DNA of 64,000 bases from Methanobacteriota archaeon (GTDB taxonomy: Archaea; Thermoplasmatota; Thermoplasmata; UBA10834). Position 1 is the stretch's first letter; every line of letters begins with the position of its first letter. Under the pieces are notes generated by a model. The model worked only from the letters and a program-made list of their open reading frames with translations, made no database searches and was not told where the DNA came from. The stretch spans positions 343,921 through 407,920 of the forward strand of contig CP070732.1 in assembly GCA_020347565.1 (NCBI GenBank). The letters are read 5' to 3'. Below, piece after piece: positions 15,815 to 34,259 of this stretch. The translations under genes were made by a program, and so were the position numbers.

Positions 15815-15870
15815 GTATTCACTCGTAAATCGGCCCGGGCGGCCGCAACGGCCACGGTGTCCGGGTGACG

Positions 15871-15878
15871 ATATATAT
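15871..15878 (+). promoter_or_regulatory. Strong TATA box upstream of the hdr cluster
   Basis: ATATATAT within GATATATATC is a near-ideal archaeal TATA box. Predicted transcription start is about 15896-15900, inside the inverted repeat at 15890-15919, so that repeat could act as an operator. Confidence 0.45.
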
Positions 15879-15889
15879 CAATAGGAGAA

Positions 15890-15919
15890 CCCGGAAATCC
15901 GAGTTTCGAACATTCCGGG
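15890..15919. repeat. Inverted repeat at the predicted transcription start
   Basis: CCCGGAA (15890-15896) and TTCCGGG (15913-15919) are perfect 7-bp arms around a 16-base centre. It is either an operator overlapping the start of the upstream promoter or an RNA hairpin at the 5' end of its transcript. Confidence 0.5.
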
Positions 15920-16012
15920 AGATGTTCGCACGTACTACTACGCTTTATTAAGGTGCAATCTAACGATTATCGCTCAGGGAGCTGCGTTTTTCGAGACATG
16001 AACAACGAAACG

Positions 16013-16020
16013 TATATTAA
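16013..16020 (+). promoter_or_regulatory. TATA box nearest the hdr leader
   Basis: TATATTAA preceded by a purine-rich CGAAACG that could be a BRE. Predicted start near 16040, just before the structured leader and about 105 bases before the hdrA1 ATG. Confidence 0.5.
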
Positions 16021-16052
16021 CAGCTCCTTTATTACATCCCGCTGTAAGGATT

Positions 16053-16137
16053 GCCAGAGCCGAGTGGATGCGCCAGACTGACTTGGCGACCTCCGCGGGG
16101 TCACTCGGACTGAGCCAATTCGTCTGGCCTTGGCCAG
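16053..16137 (+). ncRNA. Candidate structured, switch-like leader of the hdr operon
   Basis: CCGAGTG (16060-16066) pairs with CACTCGG (16102-16108), enclosing helices CGCCA/TGGCG (16071-16075 with 16084-16088) and ACCTC/GGGGT (16089-16093 with 16097-16101). This is a compact three-way junction with almost no unpaired bases between helices. A downstream GTCTGGC (16122-16128) can pair with three partners: GCCAGA at 16053-16058, GCCAGAC at 16072-16078, or, in its CTGGC part, GCCAG at 16133-16137 beside the AGGAGG ribosome binding site. Competing helices of this kind are typical of riboswitch expression platforms. No known class recognised. Confidence 0.5.
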
Positions 16138-16147
16138 GAGGGAAATC

Positions 16148-18241
16148 ATGAGTTCACCTGAGCCACTCGGAGAGAACGACGCGGAACGACCTCAGGAGCC
16201 GCGCCGGAAGACCTCGCAGGCGCCGAGGATCGGGGTTTTCGTATGTCATTGCGGCAGCAACATCGCCGGCACGGTAGACATGCCCAAAGTCACGGAGGCC
16301 GTCGAGAAGGTGCCAGGCGTCGTGGTGGCGAAGGAGAACAAGTACACGTGCTCCGACCTGGGCCAGGACGAGATAATCAAGGCCATCAAGGAGAATGATG
16401 TCGACAGGGTAGTCGTGGCCGCGTGTTCGCCCAGAATGCACGAGCCCACGTTCAGGAGCTGCATCAAGGAGGCGGGCCTCAATCCGTACATGCTGCAGAT
16501 GGTCAACCTGAGAGAGCAGTGCTCGTGGGTTCATTCCCGCGAGAAGGAGAAGGCCACGGAGAAGGCAGCCGACCTCGTGAAGATGGGCATCGCGAAGGCC
16601 GCGAGGCTGGAACCGCTCGAAGCGAGAGAGGTCCCTGTCGAGCAGTCCTCGCTGGTGATTGGGGGAGGAGTCGCTGGGATACAGGCGGCGCTCGACCTCG
16701 CACAGATGGGATTCAAGGTGTATCTGGTCGAGTCGGAACCTAGCATAGGCGGGCGCATGGCCCAGCTGGACAAGACCTTCCCGACCGGTGATTGCGCGAT
16801 ATGCATTCTGGCTCCGAAGATGGTGGAGCTGTCGAGGCATCCCAACATCACGCTGTTGTCATACTCGGAAGTTGAGGACGTCACCGGGTTCATCGGGAAC
16901 TACGACGTGAAGATCAGGAGGAAGGCTAGATACGTTGTCGAAGACAAATGCGTCGGGTGCGGCGAATGTGCCGACGCGTGCCCGGTGAAGGTCGACAACA
17001 AGTTCGACATGGGCTTCGGGAAGAGGAAGGCCATCTACGTTCCCTTCCCTCAGGCCGTCCCTCTCAAGTACACAATAGACAGGGAGAACTGCATCTACTT
17101 CAAGACCGGGAAGTGCAAGTCCTGCGTCAAGGCGTGCGCGAACGAAGCGATCGACCACGAAATGGAGGATGAGATCGTCGATGTCAAGGTGGGCACGATC
17201 ATCTGCGCGACAGGTTTCGACATCTACGTCCCAATGAAGCGCGGCGTCTACAAGTATTGGGAGTACCAGAACGTGATCACGGGCCTGGAGCTGGAGAGGC
17301 TCCTGAATGCCTCGGGACCGACGGGCGGACATCTCATCAGGCCATCGGACGGGGAGACGCCGAGGCGGGTCGCCTTCATCCAGTGCGTCGGCTCCAGGAA
17401 CAAGAAGATCGGTACCGACTACTGCTCGCGCGTGTGCTGCATGTACTCCATGAAGAACGCACAGATAATCAAGGAGCACGAGCCAGACACCGAGATAGCC
17501 GTGTACTACAACGACATCCGTGCGTTTGGGAAGGGCTTCGAAGAGCTCTACCATCGGGTGAGAGAGGAGTATGGGATCGAGTTCATAAGGGGCCGGCCAG
17601 CGAAGCTCAGTGAGAACCCAGAGACCAACTCCATCACGATAAGGGCGGAGGAGACGCTTCTCAACAAGATCACGGAGAGGGAGTTCGACCTGATTGTGCT
17701 CTCCACCGGGTTAAAGCCGTCCGAGGGCAGCCTGAAGATCGGCAAGATACTGTCCCTTTCACTCAGCCCTGACGGTTTCTTCATGGAGGCTCATCCCAAG
17801 CTCAGGCCCGTCGACACGGCAGTCGAGGGCATATACCTCGCAGGCTGCGCCCAGGGGCCCAAGGACATCCCCGACTCGGTCGCCCAGGCGAAAGCGGCGG
17901 CGGCATCCGCCGCGTCGATAATGTCTGGCAAGAAGGTCAAGATCGAACCGCTGACCGCGCTGGTGGACGAGGAACTCTGCATCGGGTGCGAGCTCTGTGT
18001 GGACATGTGTCCGTACGGCGCTCCTGAGATGGTTGAGAGTGAGAAGGGAACCAGGGCGAGGATCGTGGAGGCGCTCTGTCACGGATGTGGAACCTGCGTC
18101 GCCGCGTGCCCCCAGAAGGCCATAAAGGCGAACCAGTTCACCGACGAGCAGATTGCGTCTGAGATCGTCTCGGCCCTTGAGGGCGAGGACGGGGCGACGG
18201 GAGAGGAACGTAAGGCCTCTAAGAAGGCGGAGGAGGCATGA
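16148..18241 (+). CDS. hdrA: Heterodisulfide reductase subunit A (HdrA1)
   Basis: A protein of 697 residues with the full HdrA layout: N-terminal cysteine domain (VCHCGSNI near 32, ACSPRMHEP), FAD-binding domain with GGGVAGIQAAL near 170 and [21 protein letters not shown], inserted ferredoxin clusters (CVGCGECADACP; CKSCVKACANEAI) and two C-terminal [4Fe-4S] clusters near 610-655 (CIGCELCVDMCP; CHGCGTCVAACP). HdrA holds the flavin where electrons from H2 are thought to bifurcate to ferredoxin and to HdrB. The ATG at 16148 follows AGGAGG six bases upstream. The gene overlaps hdrC by four bases. Confidence 0.95.
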   Translation: MSSPEPLGENDAERPQEPRRKTSQAPRIGVFVCHCGSNIAGTVDMPKVTEAVEKVPGVVVAKENKYTCSDLGQDEIIKAIKENDVDRVVVAACSPRMHEPTFRSCIKEAGLNPYMLQMVNLREQCSWVHSREKEKATEKAADLVKMGIAKAARLEPLEAREVPVEQSSLVIGGGVAGIQAALDLAQMGFKVYLVESEPSIGGRMAQLDKTFPTGDCAICILAPKMVELSRHPNITLLSYSEVEDVTGFIGNYDVKIRRKARYVVEDKCVGCGECADACPVKVDNKFDMGFGKRKAIYVPFPQAVPLKYTIDRENCIYFKTGKCKSCVKACANEAIDHEMEDEIVDVKVGTIICATGFDIYVPMKRGVYKYWEYQNVITGLELERLLNASGPTGGHLIRPSDGETPRRVAFIQCVGSRNKKIGTDYCSRVCCMYSMKNAQIIKEHEPDTEIAVYYNDIRAFGKGFEELYHRVREEYGIEFIRGRPAKLSENPETNSITIRAEETLLNKITEREFDLIVLSTGLKPSEGSLKIGKILSLSLSPDGFFMEAHPKLRPVDTAVEGIYLAGCAQGPKDIPDSVAQAKAAAASAASIMSGKKVKIEPLTALVDEELCIGCELCVDMCPYGAPEMVESEKGTRARIVEALCHGCGTCVAACPQKAIKANQFTDEQIASEIVSALEGEDGATGEERKASKKAEEA

Positions 18242-24812: not shown

Positions 24813-24838
24813 CCCGAGGAACCGGTGGCGCTCGCCGC

Positions 24839-24856
24839 ACAGGTTTCGTCACCTGT
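24839..24856 (+). terminator. Hairpin between the two halves of the hdr cluster
   Basis: ACAGGT and ACCTGT form a perfect 6-bp stem with a 6-nt loop, 26 bases after the mvhD-hdrCB stop. No T-run follows directly. A TATA-like ACATAAAAG is at 24867-24875, so this 160-base gap may hold both an end and a new start of transcription. Confidence 0.3.
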
Positions 24857-24972
24857 CCAACGAAACACATAAAAGAAGAGACTCAATACCGCAAAGGCAA
24901 AAGGGGTTCGCTGATTGCAGTAGGCACCTTGCAGATACGAGTGAACATGAGATTTGAATAGGGGGGTTTTGA

Positions 24973-33414: not shown

Positions 33415-33872
33415 GCAGTACGGCTCCGGAGACCGGGGGCGAGCACAAGGTGGGAGAGGAGAGCTTTGAGCCGAGGATCATCGTCTTCTGCTGCAACTGG
33501 TGTTCCTATGCGGGCGCGGACCTCGCCGGCGTGAGCAGGCTGCAGATGCCTCCGCACTTCAGGGTGATCAGGGTCATGTGCTCCGCGAGAGTGGACCCGG
33601 AGTTCGTCCTGAGGGCGTTCCAGAAGGGTGCGGATGGAGTGCTTGTCGCTGGATGCCATCCGGCGGACTGCCACTACATCGGCGGCAACTACCGGACCCG
33701 CAGAAGGATCGCGCTTCTGAGGATCCTGCTCCAACAGTTCGGCTTCGACCCGGGAAGGCTGAAGCTCGAGTGGATCTCCGCCGGAGAGGGTGAGAAGTTC
33801 CAGAAGACGATCGTCGAGTTCACGGACACGGTCAACGAGCTTGGGCCGTCTCCGATGAAGGGCGGTGACTGA
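33411..33872 (+). CDS. mvhD: MvhD-like iron-sulfur subunit (MvhD4)
   Basis: A protein of 153 residues with [34 protein letters not shown] and WISAGEGEKF. As the MvhD nearest the hydrogenase genes it is the best candidate for the true MvhAGD partner. It overlaps hdrA5 by four bases and is followed by the winged-helix gene two bases later. Confidence 0.92.
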   Translation: MSSTAPETGGEHKVGEESFEPRIIVFCCNWCSYAGADLAGVSRLQMPPHFRVIRVMCSARVDPEFVLRAFQKGADGVLVAGCHPADCHYIGGNYRTRRRIALLRILLQQFGFDPGRLKLEWISAGEGEKFQKTIVEFTDTVNELGPSPMKGGD

Positions 33873-33874
33873 AG

Positions 33875-34258
33875 ATGACTCCGCGAAAGGCGAAGATACG
33901 GGCCGCTCTCAGGACGCTCGAGGGAGAGCGCATCCGATGGCTTCTGGGCAAGAAGGAGAAGCTGACGACCGAGGAGAACGTGTTCGGCGAGGCCATTACC
34001 GATGCCAGATACGACTTCATACTCCAGAAGGCTGCCGCGGTCGAGCTGGAGCGGAATATGCTGCTGCTCCAGATGGAACAGCAGTCGAAGACCGTGCATG
34101 AGCTCCACGACTCGACCGGAATACCAAAGCCGGAGATCGTCCAGCACATCATAGCGCTGAAGAGGTGGAGGATGATAGAGCAGGTCGGCACGACGGGACA
34201 GTCCCCGCAGTACATGGCCGTCCCGAAGAAGCGGTCTTCGGCAGAGGAGGTGAGCTGA
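33875..34258 (+). CDS. Winged-helix-like protein of the hydrogenase cluster
   Basis: A protein of 127 residues: basic N-terminus, a helical region (LLGKKEKLTTEENVFGEAI), a helix rich in leucine and glutamine, then KTVHELHDSTGIPKPEIVQHIIALKR in two stretches typical of a winged helix. It aligns with the C-terminal domain fused to MvhD3. Lying between mvhD4 and mvhG within a tight operon, it is probably an accessory or regulatory part of the complex. A classical transcription factor role is also possible. Confidence 0.7.
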   Translation: MTPRKAKIRAALRTLEGERIRWLLGKKEKLTTEENVFGEAITDARYDFILQKAAAVELERNMLLLQMEQQSKTVHELHDSTGIPKPEIVQHIIALKRWRMIEQVGTTGQSPQYMAVPKKRSSAEEVS

Positions 34259-34259
34259 G

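Follow-up and report, generated by a model that had tools for sequence, protein, structure and literature searches.

Does the short leader in front of an archaeal hdr operon carry a functional RNA and, if so, how could it act on the operon? The question is raised by an uncultured Thermoplasmata genome, assembled as a single contig, which carries the window considered here (the whole stretch of 64,000 nucleotides that was analyzed). In this window hdrA1 is followed by hdrC, hdrB, a gene for a FlpD/MvhD protein, hdrA2 and a FlpD-CCG fusion, with hdrB and FlpD assigned by Pfam and hdrC by position and sequence only. Upstream of the operon lies hypD (Pfam), which is itself preceded by other hyp-like genes. 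The original prediction, made from this one sequence, placed a compact three-way junction before hdrA1 and proposed that a nearby segment, GTCTGGC, changes partners and thereby switches the ribosome binding site on and off. All coordinates that it gave for the junction, GTCTGGC, AGGAGG and the ATG are correct (Table 1). Comparison with relatives indicates that the part of the junction formed by helices P1 and P2 is a real structure and more than a chance fold. The explanation we favor, with moderate confidence, is that the hdr leader carries a new, lineage-specific, cis-acting structured RNA that tunes the operon message; a regulatory role of the leader fold in the hdr operon is likely.

Table 1. 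Features of the hdr leader and its surroundings, in window coordinates.
Feature	Position	Strand	Description and evidence
AACGATTATCGC DNA motif	15962..15973	+	upstream of promoter; candidate regulator site; upstream sequences of 17 genomes
TATA box TATATTAA	16013..16020	+	conserved across the family; spacing fits archaeal promoters
Initiator-like motif GTAAG	16044..16048	+	inferred transcription start; 31 nt after first T of TATA box
P0b 5' strand GGATTG	16048..16053	+	pairs with CAATTC 16116-16121; RNAalifold, five members of the window's genus
P0a 5' strand CAG	16055..16057	+	pairs with CTG 16110-16112
P1 5' strand CCGAGTG	16060..16066	+	7 bp with 16102-16108
P2 5' strand CGCCA	16071..16075	+	5 bp with TGGCG; invariant G next
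P2 3' strand TGGCG	16084..16088	+	evidence as for P2 5' strand
Joining strand ACCTCCGCGGGGT	16089..16101	+	near-invariant CGGGG; site of proposed third helix
P1 3' strand CACTCGG	16102..16108	+	evidence as for P1 5' strand
GTCTGGC	16122..16128	+	segment of the proposed three-way switch; relatives do not keep the complementarity
Shine-Dalgarno AGGAGG of hdrA1	16136..16141	+	sequence
hdrA1	16148..18241	+	first gene of hdr operon, ATG at 16148; ORFs and Pfam

Conservation and pairing of the leader element

Taken by itself, the stretch 16045-16150 gives an ordinary fold (z = -1.14), equalled by 26 of 200 shuffles, and a single sequence therefore cannot decide the matter, while comparison can. The minimum-energy fold of this stretch differs from the three-way junction. 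The predicted transcript, taken from 16044 to just past the ATG, favors P1 and P2, each with a mean pair probability of 0.93. Across genomes, single-sequence folds favor P1/P2 in some and other folds in others.

Conservation in relatives had been named in the original prediction as a test, and 17 of the 19 family genomes examined carry the P1/P2 core ahead of the hdr operon. Their upstream regions share, in this order, CCGAGTG, GCGCCAGA, TGGCG, CGCGGGGT and CACTCGG, or variants of these. A covariance model built from ten family upstream sequences returned one strong copy in each of 15 family genomes (E 7e-5 or better), three of which (G014, G012 and G009) were neither in the model nor aligned earlier. 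The copy in G006 is much changed, with P1 and most of P2 retained, and reaches 22.6 bits at its own locus; it was missed by the genome-wide model search and was placed by synteny. The G001 copy, in which P2 is kept and P1 is partly broken, has no model match and was likewise placed by synteny. A full-length hdrA1 match is present in 14 of the 19 family genomes, and in G009 hdrA1 lies in two adjacent pieces. G012 and G014 lack hdrA1 at this locus and have the element directly before hdrA2, from which it follows that the element is tied to the operon rather than to hdrA1 as such. Behind the leader at these two loci (L119 and L112), a short piece similar to the start of hdrA1 is still found.

Beyond the family, the sister family gave only a chance-level partial model score, and nothing convincing was found in two overlapping samples, one of 300 genomes from the class and one of 390 from the phylum. 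Weak matches in these samples were few (best E 2.5e-4) and came mostly from one family rich in first-look candidates. Among the relatives sampled, the element thus appears to be confined to its family.

A structural alignment of 17 sequences was padded by hand to match the P2 strands, with P2 in mind, which favors P2; P1 needed no such help. Across the alignment, 96.6% of the cells in P1 are paired, as are 90.6% in P2 when it is counted as 16070-16074 with 16085-16089 (one outer pair added). Both sides have changed in four P1/P2 pairs, three of them in P2, and in one pair of P0a. RNAalifold returned P1, P2 and the third helix of the proposed junction (ACCTC 16089-16093 with GGGGT 16097-16101, 5 bp including one G-U), with z = -3.5 and none of 400 column shuffles doing as well. 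The pairing was also compared with a tree null, in which the observed substitutions were moved over the tree of the hypD region. P1 is 96% paired against 74% expected and P2 is 90% paired against 68%, and joint covariation exceeds the null at p = 0.013; no individual base pair is significant among these 16-17 related sequences. The third helix is not supported: neither its paired fraction (p = 0.29) nor its covariation (p = 0.82) exceeds the tree null. P1 and P2, the other two helices of the junction, are conserved with compensatory changes.

The core is also better conserved than hypD. When genera g1 and g3 are compared, identity is 85% for the P1/P2 stems and 89% for GGGGU, but 44% for the third codon positions of hypD and 65% over a segment centered on hypD. 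The loop of P2 varies in sequence and length between genomes. A paired core kept at a constant position ahead of orthologous genes is what would be expected of a structured cis-acting leader RNA, and such a core is seen here.

Outside P1, the pairing extends differently in different genera. In the other two genera, most members have TGG/CCG as the 3-bp extension P0a, with A-U exchanged for G-C by changes on both sides between genera. P0b is an extension at the level of one genus only, and its shuffled-flank energies are not significant. A longer outer stem formed from the flanks was rejected, since its energies are ordinary against shuffled flanks (mean z -0.41). At L008 (G006, of the same genus), ATATGAA near the start of the leader is complementary to TTCATAT just past the start codon, and other members of the window's genus have shorter complementarity of the ATATGAA/TTCATAT type, with G-U pairs.

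The length of the core differs between genomes by non-multiples of three, which disfavors a coding role. An upstream ORF was rejected on these length shifts and on the aligned leaders, several of which lack the ATG. In the window, a leader ATG at 16068 opens a frame of 27 codons (16068-16151), the TGA of which overlaps the ATG of hdrA1.

Promoter and predicted transcript

A BRE-like CGAAA precedes the TATA box, and an AT-rich element, TTTATTA (16028-16034), follows it. The initiator-like motif is GTAAG in the window and GTCAG(A) in most relatives, and 16 of the 17 genomes place it 30-32 nt from the TATA box. Archaeal promoters have their TATA box centered about 27 nt upstream of the start (PMC5316973), and the spacing at the hdr promoter is consistent with this. 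The transcript is predicted to start near 16044, so that the window's leader would measure 104 nt. Since the TATA box and the initiator-like motif put the predicted start there, and not downstream of 16110, the entire fold would lie within the leader, and the structured leader is probably transcribed. The fold ends about 40 nt 5' of the start codon.

P1 begins 14-19 nt past the predicted 5' end of the transcript in every genome (about 16 nt in the window). Such a position would suit a passive 5' stabilizer or translation-setting leader, in which a stable fold close to the 5' end would shield the message and sense nothing. A generic stable hairpin would nevertheless have no need of the near-invariant unpaired CGGGG, and we consider a purely passive role rather unlikely.

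Because P1 is a perfect inverted repeat (CCGAGTG/CACTCGG) in most genomes, and because other conserved DNA motifs lie upstream, the same letters could instead be read as an operator, bound by a protein on the DNA. Three observations make this very improbable: the spacing between the halves of the repeat varies between genomes, P2 inside the repeat keeps its pairing too, and the repeat lies downstream of the inferred start.

Among the upstream motifs, AACGATTATCGC is identical or near-identical in most family genomes (17 upstream sequences), and the exact 12-mer occurs as a single copy genome-wide. It is followed by a TTTTCGAAA-like sequence. The core of the motif, CGATTATCGC, was rejected as a genome-wide regulator site: it has 21 exact copies, and nearly all of those away from hdr fall in coding sequence, which speaks against a regulon. 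One copy, L154, was scored as intergenic under a 90-aa ORF cut-off. In the intergenic part adjoining hypD, conservation is seen in just one of the six relatives compared, the nearest.

Comparison with known RNA families

The original prediction held that known archaeal riboswitches, the fluoride class included, do not match the leader by eye, and this is borne out by searches of Rfam. At gathering thresholds there were no matches in the window; a relaxed search of 15830-16160 returned only a snoRNA match, which lies outside the element (E 2.6); and the loci of five relatives gave none. No description of the element was found in the literature on archaeal leaders and Hdr. The element marks a central energy-metabolism operon with a structure that matches no Rfam family, and it offers a short, testable RNA with which to ask whether archaea regulate Hdr after transcription.

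Two archaeal RNAs invite comparison. The flpD RNA motif (RF01737) is a candidate structured RNA of Euryarchaeota (Weinberg et al. 2010, PMC2864571). It bears the name of flpD, and the hdr operon likewise encodes FlpD/MvhD proteins, a likeness of genomic theme only. The hdr element differs in having no match to Rfam even in the relaxed search, the comparison being one by covariance model, and it sits at the head of its operon, before hdrA1. The fluoride (crcB) riboswitch (RF01734) is a class present in archaeal leaders (PMC2864571); it has no Rfam match here, and the hdr operon is not among the gene types reported for it in that study.

A selenocysteine insertion element (SECIS) was also considered for this leader. 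HdrA is a selenoprotein in some methanogens. An archaeal SECIS can occupy the 5' leader and has an asymmetric loop of GAA opposite A, flanked by G-C pairs (PMC11881835). Inspection of the aligned core by eye revealed no such GAA/A loop. The frame of hdrA1 is open without internal stops and holds no in-frame UGA, the TGAs reported in L016 and L017 falling outside hdrA1, and no tRNA-Sec match (RF01852) above the cut-off was found in the genome, which is estimated to be about 90% complete. An archaeal SECIS was excluded because hdrA1 has no in-frame UGA and no tRNA-Sec scores above the cut-off.

Possible modes of action

In the explanation favored here, P1 encloses P2 together with the conserved CGGGG-bearing joining strand, and the fold most likely acts in cis, after transcription begins. 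It would present a conserved surface made up of the bases that follow the 5' strand of P2 and the CGGGG of the joining strand. A protein or small-molecule partner could meet this surface, and the translation or stability of the operon message would be tuned as a result. A protein-binding leader and a riboswitch are two specific forms of this explanation.

In the first form, a product of the operon, by feedback, or an RNA-binding protein would bind the leader. The conserved unpaired CGGGG would suit such a site, and confinement to a single operon of a single family would agree with a dedicated protein. No kink-turn-like motif was seen by eye, and we regard protein binding as a tentative possibility.

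In the second form, an Hdr-related ligand such as a thiol, flavin, iron, nickel or the redox state itself would toggle access of the ribosome. The position in a leader, the compact conserved core, the near-invariant unpaired bases and an operon devoted to a single metabolic system are all in keeping with a riboswitch. Were ligand binding true, the element would be a new archaeal riboswitch class, held by one uncultured Thermoplasmata family and controlling the hdr operon through a redox-, metal- or cofactor-related ligand. The evidence on a switching mechanism makes this a possible but rather unlikely reading. Predicted accessibility of the ribosome site shows no consistent direction of change with P1 on or off, which also counts against the on/off switch originally predicted at that site. 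The joining strand pairs with the ribosome site no better than expected by chance and was rejected as an anti-Shine-Dalgarno (own versus permuted pairs, p = 0.26; versus shuffled letters, z = +1.0). The pairings tested as expression platforms, between the joining strand and the ribosome site and between GTCTGGC and its partners, are not conserved; a different platform may serve instead. A single target operon in a single family also weighs against a riboswitch.

The mechanism first proposed, in which GTCTGGC alternates among three partners and so opens or closes the ribosome site, fares worst. Its three complementarities, to 16053-16058, to 16072-16078 and, through the CTGGC part, to 16133-16137, are all present in the window. 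They are not conserved: in relatives the segment reads GACTAGC, CACCGGC, GACACGC or GTCTAAC, and segment and partners are not kept as complements. Pairing with a genome's own partners is at most weakly better than with those of other species, with a slight excess for the partner before P1 (permutation p = 0.034) and p = 0.15 and 0.07 for the others, all uncorrected for three tests. When leaders of the same composition are shuffled, 21% contain a perfect 7-nt complement pair, and a 7-bp alternative pairing is therefore unremarkable on its own. We consider this switch extremely improbable.

Two further stretches of the window drew attention. An intergenic stretch at 24813-24972, 5' of the next hdrA-like gene, aligns with two of three relatives of the same genus and is possibly a second promoter or leader. 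At 33415-34259, 845 bases without a listed main gene align with all six relatives compared, at coverages of 26% to 100%, and may hold an unlisted gene.
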